A stretch of DNA of 64,000 nucleotides from Vibrio ostreae (lineage in GTDB: Bacteria; Pseudomonadota; Gammaproteobacteria; Enterobacterales; Vibrionaceae): contig NZ_CP076643.1 of NCBI RefSeq assembly GCF_019226825.1, positions 1,984,001 through 2,048,000 of the forward strand, in the 5' to 3' direction. Both the position numbers and the translations under genes were made by a program. The notes under the pieces were generated by a model, which was not told the DNA's origin, made no database searches, and worked only from the letters and a program-made list of their open reading frames with translations. Each line of letters starts with the position of its first letter. The first letter of the stretch is position 1. Shown piece by piece: positions 32,767-42,800 of this stretch.

Positions 32767-32932
32767 AAGGCACTCACGCAGCTCTAACCATAATAATATT
32801 CAGATTATCATAAGCATGCCCGGCTGTACGGGATAGAGTGCGCAAAGGGTTAAGCAATACGCAATTTGCCGTGCTGGTAACCGGTCAGATATACTGAACC
32901 TATTCTGATTGATGTTAAACACAACTAAACCT

Positions 32933-33823
32933 ATGGCTGCCAATATTTCGCTCAAGCAATTGCGGGTCTTTACCACCGTCACCCAATATAAAACCCTGAC
33001 TGCCGCCAGCGAGATGCTGTTCCTGTCCAAAGCTGCGGTTAGCATGGCGTTATCGGAGCTGGAAAAACAGCTCGGCCACGCGCTGTTTGACCGGGTCAAT
33101 AACCGCCTGATCCTCAACCAGGAAGGGCAAAAACTGCTGCCGCTGGCCGATGAACTGCTCAGCCGCGCCAGAGATCTCGACCAACTGTTTAACGACAACC
33201 AGACCCTGTCCGGCCAGTTACGTATCGGTGCCAGTGATACGATTGGCAATCAGGTCGCGCCCTATCTGCTCAGTGCCTTCCGGGATAAATTTGACCATCA
33301 TTCACAAAGCCTGTTTATTGGCAATTCGGCACTGATTTGCGAGAAACTGGTCGACTATGAGCTGGATATTGCACTGATTGAGGGGAAAACCCTGCACCCG
33401 CAACTGATGTCGACCCAGTTCAGCCAGGATGAAATGTGCATCGTCTGCGCGCCGCATCATCCGCTGGCTGCACAGGACAAAGTATTGCTGCGTGATTTCG
33501 AGCAGAGTGAGTGGGTACTGCGTGAAGCGGGCTCAGGCTCACGTGAGTTTTTCCTGCGCGCGATTGCGCCGCGTATCGAACAGTGGCATGAAGCGTTTGA
33601 ACTCAATACCACCGAAGCGCTGATCAACAGCGTTTCGGCCGGACTGGGCTTTGGCTGCCTGTCGCGCCTTGCCGCCAAAAGCGCCATTAATGATGGCCGC
33701 ATCAAGGTGCTCAATGTCCCGCTCGACATGAAACGCCGCTTCTGGGTCCTGGTACATAAAGAGAAATACCAGAGCCCGCTGCTGCAACGTTTCATCGAAT
33801 TCTGCCATCACTGGCAAGGCTGA
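32933..33823 (+). CDS. LysR-family transcriptional regulator, YeiE-like
   Basis: N-terminal winged-helix (ISLKQLRVFTTVTQYKTLTAASEMLFLSKAAVSMALSELEKQLGHALFDRVNNRL) plus periplasmic-binding-like effector domain from about residue 90. The pattern resembles YeiE-type regulators more than metabolic-operon LysRs. I chose MAANISLKQ at 32933 (296 residues) by family N-terminus; ATG at 32912 is the alternative. The divergent neighbour is recC, which need not be its target; the effector is unknown. Confidence 0.87.
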   Translation: MAANISLKQLRVFTTVTQYKTLTAASEMLFLSKAAVSMALSELEKQLGHALFDRVNNRLILNQEGQKLLPLADELLSRARDLDQLFNDNQTLSGQLRIGASDTIGNQVAPYLLSAFRDKFDHHSQSLFIGNSALICEKLVDYELDIALIEGKTLHPQLMSTQFSQDEMCIVCAPHHPLAAQDKVLLRDFEQSEWVLREAGSGSREFFLRAIAPRIEQWHEAFELNTTEALINSVSAGLGFGCLSRLAAKSAINDGRIKVLNVPLDMKRRFWVLVHKEKYQSPLLQRFIEFCHHWQG

Positions 33824-33895
33824 TTCAGACTGTTCATCCGCACTTAAGCACACGCCACAGTTTTCGCACTGTGGCTGGACTTCTGATTGCAAAAA

Positions 33896-33911
33896 CTGTA
33901 TAAAAAGCCAG
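33896..33911 (+). promoter_or_regulatory. Candidate LexA box upstream of yebG
   Basis: CTGT-N8-CCAG, one mismatch from CTGT-N8-ACAG with an AT-rich centre, 32 bases before the yebG ATG. yebG is LexA-controlled in E. coli. Confidence 0.55.
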
Positions 33912-33942
33912 TAATTTATTAGCAAAATGTAGAGGATGAACC

Positions 33943-34233
33943 ATGGCTGTCATCGTTAAGTACGTGGTGGAACGCAACGGAGAAGAGAAAATGACTTTTA
34001 CCTCGAAAGCCGAAGCTGACGCATATGACAAAATGCTGGACATGGCGGACGAGCTGTTCGAACTGCTGGGTAAAAGTGAACTGGTAGAAGACGAAAGCAA
34101 ACAGGAAGAGCTGGCCATGTATCTGGCCCAGAACAAAGAAGAAGTTCTGTATGCCCTGGGTGCCAAACGTAAACCGACACCAAAGAAACCTAAAGCCGTC
34201 AAAGACGATCAAGCTGTCGACGACGCCGCTTAA
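33943..34233 (+). CDS. yebG: YebG-family SOS-response protein
   Basis: 96-residue DNA-damage-inducible protein of unknown biochemical role. The start MAVIVKYVVERNGEEKMTFTSKAEADAYDKMLDMAD is the family signature; a Lys/Pro-rich tail (KRKPTPKKPKA) follows. AGAGG precedes the ATG, and a LexA-like box sits upstream, agreeing with SOS control. Confidence 0.92.
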   Translation: MAVIVKYVVERNGEEKMTFTSKAEADAYDKMLDMADELFELLGKSELVEDESKQEELAMYLAQNKEEVLYALGAKRKPTPKKPKAVKDDQAVDDAA

Positions 34234-34559
34234 TCCAATCCCAAACCGCTGTTGTTGTTTTCCGGCTTAAGTCGTTGCTTTTCGGCTTTAGCGGGTAAAC
34301 CGGTAGCGGTTTTTTTATTTTTATCATGCAATTAACACGCAAAACCAGCATAACTACCGGCTAATTCCATCTAAAGAGATATGTCTCTCATCAGACAAAA
34401 AGTATCGTTCTACGGACGGATCCCCGCTTTGCACTTTCCTCACCGGGTGACTCTCTTTATGATGAGCTTAATCGTTTTGAGCGAATCATTTTTAAACAGA
34501 CAGCAGCGCTCAACCTGCTGTAAACCGGATTACTAATTATAAAGTTTATGGAGACCAAC
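34234..34559 (+). other. 326-base yebG-dapD intergenic region
   Basis: Contains the yebG terminator and the dapD promoter region with AT-rich sequence near 34540. No coding frame or recognised element beyond these. Confidence 0.5.
34297..34317 (+). terminator. Probable terminator of yebG
   Basis: Short hairpin aaaccg-gtag-cggttt overlapping a run of T. The stem is weak. Confidence 0.55.
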
Positions 34560-35591
34560 ATGGCAAACTTTGCACTTGGCTTTGGCAGCGCGACCAAAAA
34601 CCGCGACGGTAAAATCATTGAAGCTTTCTTCCCTGCCCCAATTCTGAACCCAAGCGACAAGCTGATTGCCGATGTAGCAGCGGTTGCAGGCTACAGCGCA
34701 GGTAACCAGGCCATCGAAATCAGCGCAGAGCAGAGTGCCCAACTGGCACAAGCTTTCGCCGCCAACGAGCAGGCAGCAAATGCATCATTTGCAGAAAAAG
34801 CCGCCGCTTCAGCGCAGCCACTGGTACTGGTTGTACTGGCAGCAGACGAGCAACCACAGAGCGTGGCAGAAGGTTTCCTGAAACTGCAACTGATCTCAAA
34901 CCGCCTGGTTCAGCCACACGGCATCATCCTGGATGGTATCTTCGGTCTGCTGCACAACATCGCATGGACGAACGAAGGTCCTATCGACCTGCCTGAACTG
35001 GCTGATCGTCAAATCGAAGCGCGCCTGGCTGGGCGTGCTCTGAGCGTCGATTGTGTAGACAAATTCCCTAAAATGGTGGATTACGTGGTGCCAACTGGTA
35101 TCCGTATCGCTGACACGTCTCGTGTCCGTCTTGGCGCGCACGTCGGCGAAGGCACCACAGTGATGCACGAAGGCTTCATCAACTTCAACGCTGGCACCAC
35201 CGGTGTGAGCATGGTTGAAGGCCGTATCTCTGCTGGCGTACTGGTCGGTAACGGCTCGGATATCGGCGGCGGCGCGTCTATCATGGGTACCCTGTCTGGC
35301 GGCGGTAAAGTGGTGGTTTCTATCGGTGAAAACTCGCTGCTGGGCGCCAACTCTGGTCTGGGCTTCCCGCTGGGTGACCGTTGTACGGTTGAATCGGGTC
35401 TGTATGTAACGGCAGGCACGAAAGTGCGCATGCTGGATAACCAGGGCAACGAAGTTGAAATCGTCAAAGCACGTGATCTGGCTGGCGTTTCTGACCTGCT
35501 GTTCCGTCGCAACTCTCAAACCGGTCAGGTTGAGTGTCTGGCGAACAAATCTGCGGTTGAGCTGAACAGCGAGCTGCACAGCAACAACTAA
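34560..35591 (+). CDS. dapD: 2,3,4,5-tetrahydropyridine-2,6-dicarboxylate N-succinyltransferase
   Basis: Succinyl-CoA-dependent step of lysine and diaminopimelate synthesis. This is the long (343-residue) type: N-terminal domain, then a left-handed beta-helix with hexapeptide turns (TRVRLGAHVGEGTTVMHEGFINFNAG and SIMGTLSGGGKVVVSIGENSLLGANSG). The ATG at 34560 has GGAG seven bases before it; the ATG at 34548 overlaps that ribosome site and is rejected. Confidence 0.95.
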   Translation: MANFALGFGSATKNRDGKIIEAFFPAPILNPSDKLIADVAAVAGYSAGNQAIEISAEQSAQLAQAFAANEQAANASFAEKAAASAQPLVLVVLAADEQPQSVAEGFLKLQLISNRLVQPHGIILDGIFGLLHNIAWTNEGPIDLPELADRQIEARLAGRALSVDCVDKFPKMVDYVVPTGIRIADTSRVRLGAHVGEGTTVMHEGFINFNAGTTGVSMVEGRISAGVLVGNGSDIGGGASIMGTLSGGGKVVVSIGENSLLGANSGLGFPLGDRCTVESGLYVTAGTKVRMLDNQGNEVEIVKARDLAGVSDLLFRRNSQTGQVECLANKSAVELNSELHSNN

Positions 35592-35613
35592 GGATCACTC
35601 CTTGATGATTAAT

Positions 35614-35640
35614 AAGGCTGGCCATAGGGCCGGCCTTTTG
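35614..35640 (+). terminator. Terminator of dapD
   Basis: Ten-base arms aaggctggcc/ggccggcctt (one G-T pair) with loop atag, then TTG TTTG. Confidence 0.8.
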
Positions 35641-35782
35641 TTTGTCCGCTCTTGCGGCTTACGTTGTTCTGCCCTTCCTTTGGTTTACCCTTCATTTACG
35701 CAGCTTGCTGAAAATTGGCGTTTTTCTCTCAATCGGTTATCATTAACCATGTTCCGATATAAAGTGGAACACACAACTGTTG

Positions 35783-35849
35783 CTTCGTATAACCCCACTG
35801 ATAAGGTGTGGGGGTCTCTACCAGAATCCGTAAAATTCTGATTACGAAG
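35783..35849 (+). promoter_or_regulatory. Purine riboswitch, adenine-type aptamer
   Basis: P1 is cttcgta ... tacgaag. The P2 and P3 arms are present (ccccac/gtgggg; cagaat/attctg), with the conserved J2/3 segment gtctctacc. The J3/1 segment reads gattacg: a U where guanine aptamers have C (position 74), so adenine is the predicted ligand. It precedes an adenine/adenosine deaminase, as in V. vulnificus add. Confidence 0.92.
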
Positions 35850-35994
35850 AGTTAAGCGCATGATCGCTTTTCTCTTTGTATGGCCCGACACCACTGCCCA
35901 AGGCGAAAAGCGATTAATCTCTGTTCACTCATGCTGACCATACAGTCCGGTATTGGCGGCAGAACAGGCCAACTTTTTGATTAAGAGCCGATAT

Positions 35995-37005
35995 ATGAAA
36001 GAATTTATTCAGCAACTGCCAAAAGTAGAGCTTCACCTCCACATCGAAGGTTCACTGGAACCTGAACTGATGTTCAAACTCGCTCAGCGTAACCACATCG
36101 ACATCCCGTTTGCTTCCCCCGAAGAAGTGCGCGCCGCCTATCAGTTTTCTAACCTGCAGTCTTTTCTCGATATCTATTATCAGGGCGCCAATGTGCTGAT
36201 CCATGAGCAGGACTTTTTCGATCTGACCTGGGAATACCTGCTGCGTTGTCAGCAGGATAACGTGATGCACACCGAGATCTTTTTCGATCCCCAGACGCAC
36301 ACCGCGCGCGGCATTGCGTTTGAAACCGTACTGAACGGCATCGTCGCCGCTCTCAATAAAGCAGAGCAGGAGCTCGGCATTACCAGCCAGATCATCATGT
36401 GTTTCCTGCGTCACCTGAGTGAAGACGAAGCGCTACAGACCCTGGAACTGGCCCTGCCGTATAAAGATAAAATTGTCGGTGTTGGTCTGGATTCCTCCGA
36501 ACAAGGTCACCCGCCGGAGAAATTCAGCCGCGTGTTTGCCAAAGCGCGTGCGGCCGGCTTTATTGCCGTCGCCCACGCCGGCGAGGAGGGCCCAGCGCTC
36601 AATATCCGCAACGCGATTGATCTGCTCGGTGTACAACGGGTTGATCACGGCGTGCGCTGCGTTGAAGATGCCGCCCTGGTGGAAGAGCTGAAACAGACCC
36701 GCATGCCGCTGACCGTATGTCCGCTCTCCAATCTGAAACTGAAAGTATTCCAGCACATGACTGAGCACAACATCGTCGAACTGCTGCGCCAGGGGCTGTG
36801 CGTCACCATTAACTCAGACGACCCGGCCTACTTTGGCGGCTACATGACCGACAACTTCCTGGCGGTCTCTGATGCGCACAGCATGACCCATCAGGAGCTG
36901 GCCCAGTTCACCCGCAATGCGATTGAAGCCAGCTTTATCTCTGCAACAGAAAAAGCGCGCATGAACGCGCAGGTCGATAGCGTAGTGGCGCGCTTTAGCG
37001 CCTGA
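35995..37005 (+). CDS. add: Adenine deaminase-type member of the adenosine/AMP deaminase family
   Basis: Zinc hydrolase of the metal-dependent amidohydrolase fold, 336 residues. Zinc ligands HLH in KVELHLHIEGS, AHAGEEGPA and NSDDPAYFGGY are all there. The segment GLDSSEQGHPPEKF is the form I associate with ADE-type enzymes acting on adenine, whereas classical adenosine deaminases have GLDLAGDE. That agrees with the adenine riboswitch upstream. Substrate remains an inference; the vibrio gene is usually named add. Start ATG at 35995 chosen by family N-terminus; an in-frame TTG at 35953 is unlikely. Confidence 0.9.
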   Translation: MKEFIQQLPKVELHLHIEGSLEPELMFKLAQRNHIDIPFASPEEVRAAYQFSNLQSFLDIYYQGANVLIHEQDFFDLTWEYLLRCQQDNVMHTEIFFDPQTHTARGIAFETVLNGIVAALNKAEQELGITSQIIMCFLRHLSEDEALQTLELALPYKDKIVGVGLDSSEQGHPPEKFSRVFAKARAAGFIAVAHAGEEGPALNIRNAIDLLGVQRVDHGVRCVEDAALVEELKQTRMPLTVCPLSNLKLKVFQHMTEHNIVELLRQGLCVTINSDDPAYFGGYMTDNFLAVSDAHSMTHQELAQFTRNAIEASFISATEKARMNAQVDSVVARFSA

Positions 37006-37049
37006 GTCATACTCCGGGCTATATTCTGAGTTATGACCTCCCGCATTAT

Positions 37050-37080
37050 AAAGCTGCGCATTTCGCGCAGCTTTGTCTTT
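37050..37080 (+). terminator. Terminator of add
   Basis: Ten-base arms aaagctgcgc/gcgcagcttt with a 5-base loop, then TGTCTTT. Confidence 0.75.
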
Positions 37081-37106
37081 ACCTCAAGCACCCAACTGTG
37101 CACGCT

Positions 37107-38291
37107 TTACCCCGGATGACCATCAGCGCGCGACATGAGCAGCATAGGCGCAAAACGCAGCATAAACAGCCCGAACGCCGCAATCCACAGCAAGGCACTG
37201 AGGTTCACCCACCACAACACATACGCCGGCAGCAGCGCAACGCCTAAGCTACGCAGCACAGCGGCCAGCAGCAGCGCGCCAAACGCCAGGCTCATATCCG
37301 GCCCCTGATAAATGGCCCGTCCGGTATGGCCCATCGACACCCGGGCAACCATAGCCAGAATCAAGCCGGCCAGCGCACCGATAGCCAGCAAATGCAGCAT
37401 ATTATGAGCAAACCAAGGCTGGTCAATTGCGCCGCGTAACAGCAGACTAAGCGGTATACACAGATAAGCCGCATGCAGCGACCACACCAACGGCTCACTT
37501 AGCGTGCGCCAGGGCTGCCAACGCCACCAGCGCAGTAACTGAGCCGCGCCGGCTACAAGCATCAGCGGACGCGCAACACTCTCAGCCGTTAACGGAAAAA
37601 AGCTCAAAATAAACAGCGCCAGCAACGGCGCGTTGGCGAACCATTCCAGCCACACGAGGGACGGTTTGCTTTCGAACTGAAAGCGGCGCGCAGTAAAAAA
37701 CGGGATCACCCGCCCGCCCATCACTGCCAGCAGCAAGGTAAACCACCATAACATCGCCTGCCACACTGCCGCAGCAGCAAACGGCGCCACACCTTTTATC
37801 GTGGCATAACTGGCAAAGTTAGCGCCGATCGCAACGGCCAGTAACGGGATAAAAAACAGATTGCGCCAGCCGCGGGCACGCACCAGGCGAATCCCGACCT
37901 CATAGGCAGTCAAAGCCAGAAACAGCGCTTCAATACTGGCCGCAAGCCACAGCGGCAGCGGCGTCCAGAGCAGAAGACGCACCAACAGCCACAGCCCGAC
38001 AATCAGCGCCAGGCGCCAACCTTTCGTGGCGGGAATCGAGGTCCAGTTCTGCACTGCAGTGAGCAGAAAGCCGGCCACGATCGCCATCGCAAAGCCAAAC
38101 AGCATTTCATGCACATGCCACCATAGAGCCGGCACCACCAGCCATTGCGGCTGACCATGTTGAAACATGACAACCCAGGCTCCGACCGCAATCAAAGCAT
38201 AGGCACACCCCAGCAAAAACAATGGCCGAAAACCCGAGCGTAAAATCGCCGGGATTCGCTCCTCGGCCTGTCTGTCGACAATATTCAGCAT
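37107..38291 (-). CDS. nnrS: NnrS-family heme-copper membrane protein
   Basis: 394-residue protein with about 12 membrane helices. NnrS proteins help cells under nitric oxide stress. Typical segments: LRSGFRPLFLLG, WHVHEMLFGFAMAIVAGFLLTAVQNWT and MVARVSMGHTGRAIYQGP, with histidines that could bind heme or copper. AAGGAG precedes the ATG. The AT-rich upstream sequence (38356-38390, gatattaatgattaataatc) could hold an NsrR- or FNR-type site, but no clean match is seen. Confidence 0.92.
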   Translation of the reverse strand: MLNIVDRQAEERIPAILRSGFRPLFLLGCAYALIAVGAWVVMFQHGQPQWLVVPALWWHVHEMLFGFAMAIVAGFLLTAVQNWTSIPATKGWRLALIVGLWLLVRLLLWTPLPLWLAASIEALFLALTAYEVGIRLVRARGWRNLFFIPLLAVAIGANFASYATIKGVAPFAAAAVWQAMLWWFTLLLAVMGGRVIPFFTARRFQFESKPSLVWLEWFANAPLLALFILSFFPLTAESVARPLMLVAGAAQLLRWWRWQPWRTLSEPLVWSLHAAYLCIPLSLLLRGAIDQPWFAHNMLHLLAIGALAGLILAMVARVSMGHTGRAIYQGPDMSLAFGALLLAAVLRSLGVALLPAYVLWWVNLSALLWIAAFGLFMLRFAPMLLMSRADGHPG

Positions 38292-38407
38292 AGTGGCTCC
38301 TTCGCCTGCAATTCATTAGCTTCCGCTGCAATGAATTGCACGATTTGAGCCAAGATATTAATGATTAATAATCAATAAATTAAAAAATATCAGGTCAAAT
38401 TAACCCA

Positions 38408-38435
38408 ATAAAAAAGGAGTCATAATGACTCCTTT
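38408..38435 (-). terminator. Terminator of the GNAT/C39 gene
   Basis: Minus-strand arms aaaggagtca/tgactccttt with a 3-base loop followed by six T; about 50 bases after the stop. Confidence 0.8.
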
Positions 38436-38486
38436 CGTTGTTTTTAACCTAGTTAACCACCCAAGGGTTAACTTATCAGAGGTTAA

Positions 38487-39581
38487 TCAGGATTCGCGCC
38501 GACTGATCACCACACAAGCAATCTGTTTTTGCTTGCCGAACCCGAGGATCTGTGACAAGGCTTTTTTACCAACCGGCACATAGCCGGACGCCACTGCATG
38601 ATCTTCCGACTCGGCATGCGGATCGTGGAAAAAGAAAAACTTCTCACTCATCCCGCTCAACACGATCCAGTGCGGCTCTTTCTTGCCGTCAAAACGATAG
38701 GTACTGATCAGCAGCAACACACAAGCGCCCTGATTTACCCACTCCTCAAGCTGAGCCTGGGTTGGCGGTGCGTCAATGGTTTCAACATCTTCTTCCAGCA
38801 ACTGGCGGCAAAAATCCTGATGAACCAGCTCAATCACTTCTTTTTTATTCGCATCACGCACACTGTCGATAAACGGTGTGCTGCGTGACTGACTCCATAA
38901 CTCAACGTGAAAGCCGCGCCGCGCCGCCGCCAGAGCCAGCCCTTGTCCGCTGCAGCCGCCGTGCCCGGCCGCCATGAAAATCGTGGTCGCCTCACGCCAC
39001 AACTGCATCTCTTTCACCCGGCTTGGTTCAAAGCTGTCATCCAGGCAGGAGAAACTCATTAACAGACAAGCCGCGCCGCAGGTAAAAGGGGTGGTCTGAA
39101 CGTATAACGGCATCGGTAGCAGAACTTTCGGGCCATGGGGCGTCAAACGCTTTTGCATGCGACGTCCATCACATAAATCGTCATAGTAATGGATCAATAG
39201 CTTCAAAGTTTTATAGCTCATTTTTTCATATAATTTAATGGCTGCTATATTGTCTTCACGAACTTCTAGCCGTAATGTAGTAGAGCCTTGATCAAGAGCG
39301 GCACGCTCGCATTGCTCAACTAAAGTCTGAGCAATCCTCCGTCCTCTGAAATCAGGTTTAACGGCAATCGAATACAACCTTGATAGCTGTGTACCTTGAT
39401 GAAACAACAACAATGCATATCCAGCCAGTTCCTCACCGGCATCAGCCACCAACAAGATCGCCTGGTCGGAGTGTAAAAAGCGCTTCATTTGACGCGGAGA
39501 AATTTTATCGCCTTCAAACAGCTGTTGTTCTAATGCATTGAGCGCAGAGAGATCAGAGTCTTTCGCATGACGAAAGTCCAT
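38487..39581 (-). CDS. GNAT acetyltransferase fused to C39-like peptidase
   Basis: 364 residues in two domains. Residues 1-140 are a RimI-like GNAT fold (LYSIAVKPDFRGRRIAQTLVEQ acetyl-CoA loop, ending NIAAIKLYEKMSYKTL). Residues about 155-360 resemble C39-type cysteine peptidases: candidate catalytic Cys168 (PFTCGAACLLM), His304 (PHWIVLSG) and Asp320 (FFHDPHAE). No transporter domain is attached. It is divergent from an ATP-grasp gene across 85 bases, a pairing reported by comparative genomics as a predicted peptide-modification system. Substrates are unknown. Confidence 0.88.
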   Translation of the reverse strand: MDFRHAKDSDLSALNALEQQLFEGDKISPRQMKRFLHSDQAILLVADAGEELAGYALLLFHQGTQLSRLYSIAVKPDFRGRRIAQTLVEQCERAALDQGSTTLRLEVREDNIAAIKLYEKMSYKTLKLLIHYYDDLCDGRRMQKRLTPHGPKVLLPMPLYVQTTPFTCGAACLLMSFSCLDDSFEPSRVKEMQLWREATTIFMAAGHGGCSGQGLALAAARRGFHVELWSQSRSTPFIDSVRDANKKEVIELVHQDFCRQLLEEDVETIDAPPTQAQLEEWVNQGACVLLLISTYRFDGKKEPHWIVLSGMSEKFFFFHDPHAESEDHAVASGYVPVGKKALSQILGFGKQKQIACVVISRRES

Positions 39582-39666
39582 ACGATGTCCTTACTGGGTT
39601 GACAGGATAGTAGTTGGCAAGATTGCGATATAATCATACACCTATTGCTATAGGAAAAAACGAAAG

Positions 39667-41118
39667 ATGGCAAACCTTTTAATCGTGACCGATCAGGCCA
39701 GTGACTGGCAACAGTACTTCCCTTCCGAACAAGTGATCAGTGTCGATCAATACCTGGATGCGGACTGGAAAAACAACCACCGCAGCCTGCAGGTCGTCAA
39801 CCTGTGTCGCGATTATGACTACATGAGCGCCGGCTATTACTGCTCGCTGATGGCGGAAGCGCGCGGTCACCGCGTGATTCCGCGCGTGATGGCGATTAAT
39901 GATATTAATCAGCCATTTTTGCTCTCATCCGGACTGCTTAAACTCAATAAGCTGTGCAAAAACACCGAGACTATCGCGTGTAAGATTTATTTCGGCCGCA
40001 CACCGGAGCCCGGCCTGGACAAACTGGCCCGTCACCTGTTTGAGCAGTTTATGGTCCCGGTAATAGAACTGGAAATGACCAAGGGTCAGGGCCAGTGGCA
40101 AATTAGCAAAATCGCCCCGTTCCCGTTCCAGGACCTCAATGATCCGGAGCAGGATTTCTTCATCGAATCGCTCGAGCTGTTCTCGACCAAGGTGTGGCGC
40201 AAACCCAAACAAGAGAAAAAATACCGCTACGACATCGCTATGCTGGTCGATGAAGAAGAGAAAATGCCGCCATCAGATGCCTCGGCCCTGAAACGTTTTC
40301 GCCGCGCCGCCAACCGTTTAGGCATGAACCTGGAAAACATTTCACCGGATGACTTGTCACGTCTGGGCGAATTTGACGGCCTGTTTATCCGCGCCACCAC
40401 CAACATCAGTAACTACACTTATCGCTTTGCCAAAACCGCAGAAAAAATGGGCCTGGTGGTGATGGACGACTCAGAGTCGATCATGAAATGTACCAACAAG
40501 GTATTTCTGACCGAACTGCTGCAACGCAATAATGTGCCGGCACCGAAAAGCGTGATCCTGCAAAGCTTTGACCCGGACTGGCAGGCCCATCTGCAGCAGC
40601 ATCTTGAGTTTCCTATGGTGCTGAAGATCCCTGACGGCGCGTTTTCACGTGGCGTGGTTAAAGTGCGTAATGAACAGGAGCTGGAGAAGGAAGCCGCGGC
40701 GCTGTTTGAAAAGAGCGCGCTGATTCTGGCACAGGCCTTTATGCCAACCGACTACGACTGGCGCATTGGCGTGATGAACCGCCAACCGATATTTGCCTGT
40801 AAGTACATGATGAGCCGTGGTCACTGGCAGATTTATCAGCACCACAACAGCGGCCGCGTTTCATCGGGTGGTTTCGAAACTCTCGATCTGAAACAAGTAC
40901 CGAAAACGGTGGTCGACGTGGCGGTCAAAGCGGCTAACTTAATTGGTGGCGGTTTGTATGGTGTTGACTTAAAAGAAATTGACGGCCAAGTTTATGTTAT
41001 TGAAGTCAACGATAACCCAAGTATTGATCACCACGTTGAAGACGCCTTCCTGGGCGATCTGCTCTATGACCGGGTGATGACTGAGTTTTTACGCCGCATT
41101 CAGATGCGTGGTTTCTAA
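39667..41118 (+). CDS. RimK-like ATP-grasp ligase with RLAN N-terminal domain
   Basis: 483 residues. The N-terminal part (1 to about 150) matches the RimK-like ATP-grasp N-terminal domain (VVNLCRDYDYMSAGYYCSLMAEARGHRVIPRVMAINDI); the C-terminal half is an ATP-grasp fold with Lys320 in FPMVLKIPDGAFSRGVVKV, Arg366 and the metal-binding EVNDNPS (446-452). Such enzymes join an amino acid to a carboxylate or peptide using ATP. The divergent GNAT/C39 gene is the likely partner. Target and product are unknown. Confidence 0.88.
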   Translation: MANLLIVTDQASDWQQYFPSEQVISVDQYLDADWKNNHRSLQVVNLCRDYDYMSAGYYCSLMAEARGHRVIPRVMAINDINQPFLLSSGLLKLNKLCKNTETIACKIYFGRTPEPGLDKLARHLFEQFMVPVIELEMTKGQGQWQISKIAPFPFQDLNDPEQDFFIESLELFSTKVWRKPKQEKKYRYDIAMLVDEEEKMPPSDASALKRFRRAANRLGMNLENISPDDLSRLGEFDGLFIRATTNISNYTYRFAKTAEKMGLVVMDDSESIMKCTNKVFLTELLQRNNVPAPKSVILQSFDPDWQAHLQQHLEFPMVLKIPDGAFSRGVVKVRNEQELEKEAAALFEKSALILAQAFMPTDYDWRIGVMNRQPIFACKYMMSRGHWQIYQHHNSGRVSSGGFETLDLKQVPKTVVDVAVKAANLIGGGLYGVDLKEIDGQVYVIEVNDNPSIDHHVEDAFLGDLLYDRVMTEFLRRIQMRGF

Positions 41119-41169
41119 GCTTGGCAGGCCGCTTGCGGCCTGCTGAACTTTCCAACGAAAAGGACCGAT

Positions 41170-42107
41170 ATGGATTTTCTCATCGATCACTGGCACTTTA
41201 CTGAATCACAAGTTATTCGACCAACCCAGACACCGGACAGCATAGAAGCGGATCACTGGTATCACTGCCAGCGTGATGCGCCGGGCGTACGGGAGTGGCT
41301 GATCGACAACGCCATTCCGGCGTCTATCATTGACAGCCTGCTGGCCGAAGACACCCGCCCACTGTTTGAACAGTATGATGAGCAGAACTTTCTGCTCATT
41401 CTGCGCGGCGTAAACCTGAATGAAAATGCCGACCCGGCCGATATGCTCAGTGTGCGCATTCTGTGTTACAACGGCGCGCTGATTTCAAGCCGCAAGATCC
41501 CGTCTAAAACCATCAATGCGATTCGCACCGCGCTGAGCGAAGGGCGTGGCCCAAAAACTCTGGCCGAACTGGTGCTGGGTGTGATTGATGGCCTCAGTCG
41601 CAACATAGATAACTATCTGGATCTGGTGGAAGAAAAGATCACCGATTTTGATGACGAGCTTGAGCTGACCGAAGAACTGATGACCACGCACAAAGCACTG
41701 TTGAAAATCAAACGCTTTATTAAACCACAGCAATACGCGATTGACGATTATCAGAACTCGAGTGTACCACTGGCCGGCCATAAACAGTTGCGATTGCGCC
41801 ATAGTGTCAACACCATCACCCGCATCAACGAAACGCTGGACTTTTATCTGAGTGAACTGGAAATCATCAAAGGTGAACTGCGTCAGTACCATGCGGAAAA
41901 AATGAACCAGAACACTTATCTGTTCTCTGTGATTGCGGCCATTTTCCTGCCAACCAGTTTCCTTACCGGCCTGCTCGGTGTTAACGTAGGGGGATTCCCG
42001 GTACAGAATCACCGATTGCGTTTGGCCTGTTCTGTGCCGGACTGGTACTGATCTTCGGACTGGAATTGTGGATATTGCGCCGTCTGCAGTTCTTCGGCGG
42101 CAAGTAA
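41170..42107 (+). pseudogene. zntB: ZntB, CorA-family zinc transporter, frame broken at a G5 run
   Basis: Inner-membrane metal transporter. The frame from 41170 holds the cytoplasmic domain (MDFLIDHWHF..., WYHCQRDAPGVREWL) and the first part of the membrane region (FSVIAAIFLPTSFLTGLLGVNVGG), then ends at 42051 in an unrelated tail. If the run at 41989-41993 had six G instead of five, the sequence would continue GIPGTESPIAFGLFCAGLVLIFG and stop at 42107, giving a normal 311-residue ZntB with a GxxN-type loop. The encoded match continues perfectly, so a consensus error is likely. Confidence 0.9.
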
Positions 42108-42182
42108 CCAGAGCTGCGATGCGCCAGCAGATAAGCGGCGTTCGCTCAGTTAGTGTATGTCTCTAAGCAGCAGGAACAGTTT

Positions 42183-42734
42183 ATGTACATTTTCGGCTAC
42201 GGCAGCCTGATGAATTCAGCCTCACGGCAACTGACCGGTAACACCGGGCAGGCTTTACCCGCTATCGTGCACGGCTTAGTGCGCCATTGGGGCAAAATTG
42301 ACGACAGCTATGTTATTTCTCCTCTGGTGGTCAATCCTGGCCAGGGAGAGGTTAATGGCGTGCTGCTTGAGATTGATGATGCCGCTTTGGTGGAATTTGA
42401 TCGCCGCGAACGTGGCTATCAACGCATTGCCCTCAGCGCCGAGCAAATTGAAACTGATCACGCCTTTGATCGCACTCAGCCCATCTGGGTCTATATCAAG
42501 GATGATCATCAGCCGCCATGTGCCAACAGCCCGATTGTCCAGACTTATGTCGATACCGTGCTGGCGGGTTGCCTGGAAGTATCGGAAAACTTCGCGCGCC
42601 ATTTTGTCGAACACACACTTGGCTGGCATCATCCGCTGGAAAACGATCGCCATGCACCGAAATACGGTAACCTGGCCGGCGTCAAGCAAGATCACCATCC
42701 GCTGATCGATGCCCTGCTGGCTGACGTTCGCTAA
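42183..42734 (+). CDS. Gamma-glutamylcyclotransferase-like protein
   Basis: 183-residue protein of the GGCT/AIG2 fold: MYIFGYGSLMNSASRQLTG contains the YGSL substrate-binding loop, and the catalytic acid is probably Glu in EFDRRERGY. May release 5-oxoproline from gamma-glutamyl compounds, but substrates of the bacterial branch vary. ATG at 42183 with AGGAAC eight bases before it; the frame is open to 42153. Confidence 0.85.
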   Translation: MYIFGYGSLMNSASRQLTGNTGQALPAIVHGLVRHWGKIDDSYVISPLVVNPGQGEVNGVLLEIDDAALVEFDRRERGYQRIALSAEQIETDHAFDRTQPIWVYIKDDHQPPCANSPIVQTYVDTVLAGCLEVSENFARHFVEHTLGWHHPLENDRHAPKYGNLAGVKQDHHPLIDALLADVR

Positions 42735-42765
42735 ACACCCGGCACAGAATTCATCATTGACAGAA

Positions 42766-42789
42766 AGGCCCTCTGCTTGCAGAGGGCCT
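42766..42789 (+). terminator. Hairpin downstream of the GGCT-like gene
   Basis: Nine-base arms aggccctct/agagggcct with a 6-base loop; only a weak T-rich tail. Confidence 0.6.
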
Positions 42790-42800
42790 GTTATCATCTC

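Follow-up and report, generated by a model that had tools for sequence, protein, structure and literature searches.

Iyer et al., in 2009, reportedly used gene context to predict a number of systems for peptide synthesis and for tagging, the best known of their tagging systems being different from the one treated here. Ngg, an enzyme of the N-acetylglutaminylglutamine amide (NAGGN) route, is a fusion of a GNAT acetyltransferase and an ATP-grasp enzyme. In the NAGGN operon (asnO–ngg–peptidase), Ngg N-acetylates and forms a peptide bond, yielding an N-acetylated dipeptide, and a peptidase gene adjoins (PMC8070244). RimK and RimB lengthen a ribosomal protein in a reversible manner (PMC11957791; PMC12239564). 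The DUF3335 domain is described as a near neighbor of PF09778 that commonly occurs in fusion with GNAT domains (PMC10318531, citing Iyer 2009), and the GNAT–DUF3335 fusion has thus been published, together with a prediction of its role. Here we describe such a fusion and its partner in a 64,000-nucleotide stretch of the Vibrio ostreae genome (hereafter the window; RefSeq assembly GCF_019226825.1, contig NZ_CP076643.1, positions 1,984,001 to 2,048,000 of the forward strand). The GNAT–DUF3335 gene (38487..39581, minus strand, 364 residues, ATG start) and the gene of an RLAN–RimK ATP-grasp ligase (39667..41118, plus strand, 483 residues, ATG start) diverge from an 85-bp intergenic region (39582..39666); both open reading frames (ORFs) and their spacing exactly reproduce the coordinates, strands, and lengths of a first-pass annotation made from the sequence. 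The two genes are a real and ordinary member of a widespread enzyme pair. We propose, with a probability of roughly one-half, that the pair couples ligation to N-acetylation, that a further domain, which can be missing, cleaves amides or transfers acyl groups, and that its product is a short N-acylated peptide.

The four domains first read in these proteins were all recovered over their Pfam cut-offs, at scores well beyond chance. In the GNAT–DUF3335 protein, PF00583 matched residues 31–122 (65.5 bits, cut-off 20.7), inside a RimI/Ard1-like GNAT domain of residues 1–150 (39132..39581, minus strand), and PF11814, the DUF3335 "Peptidase_C39 like" model, matched residues 157–359 (255.2 bits, cut-off 25), the putative papain-like (C39-like) domain (38505..39113, minus strand). 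In the ligase, the RLAN domain (PF14401; 150 bits, cut-off 25; residues 27–167, 39745..40167, plus strand) is followed by a RimK-type ATP-grasp domain (PF08443; 45.5 bits, cut-off 21; residues 277–455) within a ligase fold of residues 188–483 (40228..41115, plus strand), which places the protein in the RLAN ligase family. The ligase is 92% identical to that of V. furnissii and 93% identical to that of V. fluvialis, and records of relatives name the two proteins "GNAT family N-acetyltransferase/peptidase C39 family protein" and "RimK family protein."

The active sites of both proteins are kept across homologs. In an alignment of 84 rows of the GNAT–DUF3335 protein (sharing 35% to 90% identity with the window protein), the proposed C168/H304/D320 triad is present as named: Q162, C168, and H304 occur in 84/84 rows, and position 320 is always acidic (D in 71, E in 13). 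The profile match together with Cys-His-Asp/Glu and an oxyanion Gln confirms membership in DUF3335, and conservation among homologs, a check the first-pass annotation had itself suggested, does not refute its reading. In the GNAT domain, E106 and N111 are found in 84/84 rows and Y118 in 82/84; by a hand count on the alignment, E106 is the counterpart of Sulfolobus Ard1 E127, the position mutated, judging by their titles, in PDB entries 6ag4 and 6ag5. An AlphaFold2 model of the protein was confident (predicted local distance difference test [pLDDT] score 92.1), and a fold search found the GNAT half nearest to RimI and Ard1; the rimI model TIGR01575 stayed under its cut-off (77.8 of 86.4 bits). 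The whole-protein fold search listed GNAT matches only and says nothing on a papain-like fold of DUF3335. Neither model of Peptidase C39 proper (PF03412 and PF13529) matched the window protein at E 0.001; matches to these models do occur in some relatives.

The DUF3335 profile found only weak matches among PDB sequences, including a C39 domain (6mpz; E 0.017) and BtrH_N chains (E 0.024), in both of which the catalytic His/Asp motifs align. An acyl- or aminoacyl-transferase like BtrH, with the module building a secondary metabolite, would account for these matches, and a GGACT-type gamma-glutamyl cyclotransferase gene does lie two genes away from the ligase (42153–42734), recalling butirosin, whose BtrG accompanies BtrH and BtrJ. 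However, no carrier-protein or tailoring gene was seen to recur near the pair in the loci surveyed, the outer neighbors vary, and the GGACT gene is near it in only 10 of 48 loci, every one of them Vibrio, so that we consider acyl-transfer chemistry of this kind improbable.

The ligase was compared in an alignment of 88 rows. RLAN residues N45, G56, Y57, Y58, L61, and R66 are invariant; ATP-grasp residues K278, K320, R366, E446, N448, and N450 are found in 88/88 rows and D434 in 87/88 (the remaining row has a gap), so the ATP-grasp core of the first annotation keeps its catalytic residues. The AlphaFold2 model was fair (pLDDT 85.0, with parts of the RLAN half weak), and the ligase half (188–483) was nearest to LysX, ArgX, and RimK, with D-Ala-D-Ala ligases behind (VIA-align Z). 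The NCBIfam models of RimK were not passed (NF007764, 35.6 of 331 bits; TIGR00768, 90.7 of 143.4 bits). In Pseudomonas aeruginosa RimK, glutamate is contacted by R189 and N262, among others (PMC10092738). In an alignment with the E. coli-type RimK entry 5zct, which has the same numbering, window residues R366 and N448 sit at these two positions, and the RimK substrate loop FRSNLHRGG (5zct) is replaced by an invariant HWQI (386–389) followed by a variable stretch. It therefore seems that the backbone grip is kept and the side-chain pocket altered. The residue joined probably differs from the poly-glutamate added by RimK, and the donor may well be something other than glutamate.

We then asked how consistently the two genes keep company. 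Among scored candidate proteins, 7,982/7,999 match the window ligase. A search with the ligase gave 48 loci, in 47 of which the two genes are near full length, divergent, and adjacent; the remaining locus (L048) gave partial matches only. Across 349 Pseudomonadota genomes, sampled evenly, RLAN was present in 62 and DUF3335 in 52, with both in 51 compared to 9.2 expected (Fisher 4e-49, uncorrected for kinship); 51 of the 52 DUF3335 genomes thus also hold RLAN. The sample contained 65 RLAN matches, of which 54 lay inside the stretches examined and 11 outside. DUF3335 genes were within 3 kb of RLAN in 49/55 cases and in four layouts (31 same-strand, with DUF3335 first in 27 and RLAN first in four; 17 divergent; one convergent), and the other six lay farther from RLAN or, in G019, in a genome that lacks it. 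A lack of co-conservation had been put forward as grounds for refuting the first-pass reading; on Pseudomonadota the pair proved strongly co-conserved. On a ligase tree of 64 rows the gene layout switched at least two times with the pair still together, which argues for a shared function more than the intergenic gap does. The shared promoter ascribed to the 85 bases is unsupported as such: a scan limited to sigma-70-like sites found none in the gap, and the six such sites in 37000–42800 are near chance (4.3 in shuffles, SD 1.9). The divergent gap measures 63–212 bp in 46 related loci.

The patchy distribution (62/349 genomes) and the unassigned function could also describe an anti-phage or toxin module. 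PADLOC models, however, matched neither protein at E 0.01 (0 families), the flanks are common to Vibrio kin, and only 11/72,556 plasmid records had a match at E 1e-30; we regard a defense or toxin role as very unlikely.

Closer inspection of gene content suggested that the constant partner of the ligase is the acetyltransferase. We ran window-family profiles over 107 loci, of which 102 are RLAN loci (47 of the 48 above and 55 further ones, among which L146 comes from a genome reached through L047; 100 are distinct, as L047=L146 and L022=L158 are counted twice; L048 was left out as partial). The nearest GNAT within 1 kb of RLAN was a GNAT–DUF3335 protein in 84 loci, a standalone GNAT in 16, and fused to the ligase in one; the one locus with no GNAT nearby (L125) has a GNAT–DUF3335 gene on another contig of the same genome. 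DUF3335 was missing from 11/62 RLAN genomes, all 11 of which have a standalone GNAT beside the ligase. These absences fall on at least five separate branches of the ligase tree, and the ligase-adjacent GNAT changed between having and lacking DUF3335 eight times. The 17 standalone or fused GNATs share a signature of R68, Y70, S71, E106, Y118, Y133, and D135 (17/17). A protein search with the fused protein found GNAT and ligase in a single chain in 52/120 of the matches listed, four of which were rescanned. Together, the standalone GNATs, the GNAT–ligase fusions, and the DUF3335 absences argue that the system is built around the acetyltransferase and the ligase, to which the papain-like domain has been added. 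Of the originally proposed pairing, the co-conservation holds; the fusion protein as the unit that accompanies the ligase is not supported as stated.

A simple story of DUF3335 loss is not favored by three genomes with two RLAN ligases each (G069, G073, and G157), one ligase having GNAT–DUF3335 beside it (as at L149) and the other a standalone GNAT (L150–L152), which amounts to a duplicated system with and without DUF3335, or by G017, in which GNAT–DUF3335 sits 2.1 Mb from the ligase. Absence of the domain on at least five branches with the GNAT retained would be expected if DUF3335 were a non-catalytic scaffold or regulatory domain, with GNAT and ligase alone as the working unit; the intact catalytic set in all 84 rows, down to 35% identity, makes this quite unlikely. 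Two further arrangements were observed. At L120 (6022–10098), GNAT–DUF3335, DUF155, a standalone GNAT, and the ligase are clustered, giving two GNATs at one ligase locus. All four domains are in one chain in P0289. This is a single sequence from a metagenome, apparently truncated at its DUF3335 end, which may reflect a frame error or a faulty assembly, and it was not used as support.

Other candidate partners were sought among the neighbors. An early survey used a longest-ORF rule, by which antisense ORFs displaced the true genes in some genomes, and the GNAT and RLAN layouts were accordingly redone with profiles. DUF155 (RMND1/Sif) was within 6 kb of the system in 14/36 places and DUF2817 was near the pair in 15/56 strong matches; both are enriched in DUF3335 genomes (21/36 and 23/45 genomes, respectively). 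The adjacent cases on the tree are mostly from one clade (those outside being G017, G278, and G359 for DUF155, and G017 and G021 for DUF2817), and the evidence for a link is thus modest. In G017, both adjoin GNAT–DUF3335 with RLAN far off, tying them there to DUF3335 and not to the ligase. A retropepsin (PF05618, RimB/RloA) was rejected as a third partner: it is present in 47/62 RLAN genomes compared to 119/349 overall, and was beside RLAN in none of the rows listed, judged by eye, and among none of the nine window ORFs scanned (32909–42734). We also rejected a ribosomally synthesized and post-translationally modified peptide system. In the best 25 rows, small ORFs recurred only within alike-flanked Marinobacter-like loci (L047, L146, L147, L155, and L157) and none recurred across distant lineages, which argues against a dedicated precursor peptide. 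The small ORF in these five loci, ∼3 kb from the pair, resembles ribosome modulation factor by eye.

In the mechanism that we prefer, the two genes would form one amide-bond module. The RLAN–ATP-grasp enzyme would use ATP to turn a carboxylate into an acyl-phosphate, to which an amine or an amino acid would then be joined. This step, the chemistry of RimK, LysX, and ArgX, we infer from the fold and the invariant residues. With acetyl-CoA, the RimI/Ard1-like GNAT would cap that acceptor, or the product, at its alpha-amino end, and the fusion of GNAT and ligase in a range of bacteria suggests that they act as one unit. Where present, DUF3335 might act on the product by cleaving or transferring one of its amide or acyl groups, so that the product would be released, edited, or recycled; this is the weakest step. 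The outcome would more likely be a short N-acylated peptide, made by a NAGGN-like route with a peptidase gene alongside, rather than a tail on a ribosomal protein.

Several observations weigh against this proposal. No assignment of a substrate or product to the module was found in this analysis or in the open-licence literature. For both enzymes, the proteins nearest in fold have protein termini as substrates (those of S18 for RimI, of S6 for RimK, and of a carrier protein for LysX and ArgX), which favors a protein acceptor, and the presence of DUF155/RMND1 near the system could hint at translation instead. Papain-like relatives of DUF3335 include acyltransferases such as BtrH (PMC10318531), and from its sequence DUF3335 is a predicted peptidase-like domain only. 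DUF155 and DUF2817 are not among the nine window ORFs scanned, so that in the window the system may do without them. Finally, the NAGGN synthetase model TIGR03103 reached 24.1 of 569 bits, with the GNAT protein only, so that the NAGGN parallel is one of layout and not of kinship.

Some of these observations would be explained by end-tagging of proteins, in which the ligase would extend a protein C terminus, the GNAT would cap an N terminus, be it of that protein or of a different one, and DUF3335 would trim the tag, as RimK and RimB do on RpsF, from which RimB strips the glutamates added by RimK (PMC11957791). The pairing of RimI-like and RimK-like enzymes, the protein-end substrates of the nearest folds, and the DUF155/RMND1 genes of some lineages are all in keeping with such a role. 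On the other hand, no target gene recurs nearby in the loci surveyed, the RimK substrate loop is not retained and the RimK models are not passed, and a retropepsin is neither among the scanned window ORFs nor, by eye, beside RLAN in the listed rows. We consider end-tagging possible but doubtful, and a small N-acyl peptide somewhat likelier than a protein tag. The candidate peptide-tagging system of the first-pass annotation is partly supported, as a putative modifier of peptides or proteins; none of the results points to tagging of a protein as opposed to synthesis of a free peptide by showing it directly. We also offer, tentatively, a more specific version of the N-acyl peptide proposal: the RLAN ligase and RimI-like GNAT may be a self-contained synthase of undescribed N-acylated peptides or N-acyl aminoacyl tails, in which the HWQI pocket would pick the residue, DUF3335 and, in some lineages, DUF2817 would be recycling hydrolases, and DUF155 an accessory membrane- or ribosome-linked factor, the whole being parallel but unrelated to NAGGN and RimK.

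A palindromic terminator-like stem (38413..38435) lies between the GNAT–DUF3335 stop and nnrS; the scan found a T run on its plus strand, and a preceding A run, seen in the sequence, would suit the minus strand. Downstream from the ligase is a zntB/CorA-like transporter gene (41170–42104) whose frame is broken near 42000. The final ∼35 residues of its relatives, in which the gene is intact, align in another frame, indicating either a pseudogene or a sequence error. NnrS, ZntB, GGACT, ADA, DapD, and GalM were rejected as parts of the system, being common to Vibrio loci only among the 48 compared; beyond these, the sole outer-neighbor match among the stretches listed was a weak ZntB (L112, 31%).

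With members in 62/349 of the Pseudomonadota genomes sampled, the RLAN ligase family is large. An N-acyl peptide product would represent a new metabolite class, whereas protein tagging by the module would be a new post-translational modification; the GNAT–ligase fusions provide a single-chain enzyme for assay, making the question directly testable. In the open-licence literature searched, which covers few subscription journals, a function for the pair is named in none of the titles and abstract starts listed. The same literature yielded no mention of the GNAT–ligase fusions, the standalone-GNAT pattern, or the DUF155/DUF2817 link, and no text with the RLAN and RimK-like phrases together; among the matches listed, none combined a RimK or ATP-grasp term with a DUF155 or RMND1 term.

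Compared to known systems, the pair comes closest in composition to the gene-context prediction for GNAT–DUF3335/RLAN–RimK (Iyer 2009; cited in PMC10318531 and PMC12239564), which reportedly has the same domains and the DUF3335–GNAT fusion and a predicted role in peptide ligation or acylation. RimI and Ard1 are N-alpha-acetyltransferases of the same fold, whereas the window-type GNAT is fused to DUF3335 or to the ligase, and relative to the LysX and ArgX ligases the window ligase reaches only 76.5 of 275.6 bits with the LysX_arch model. RimK/RimB and RloABC share with the pair a RimK-type ATP-grasp core and a ligase paired with a hydrolase-type partner (PMC11957791; PMC12239564); unlike them, the pair has an RLAN head, a cysteine-type DUF3335 in place of the retropepsin, HWQI in place of the substrate loop, and a constant GNAT partner. 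Relative to NAGGN, the window ligase has an RLAN head and no asparagine-synthase gene is among the nine ORFs scanned; the NAGGN operon is nonetheless the known layout most like the module, bringing together N-acetylation, peptide-bond formation, and a peptidase gene.
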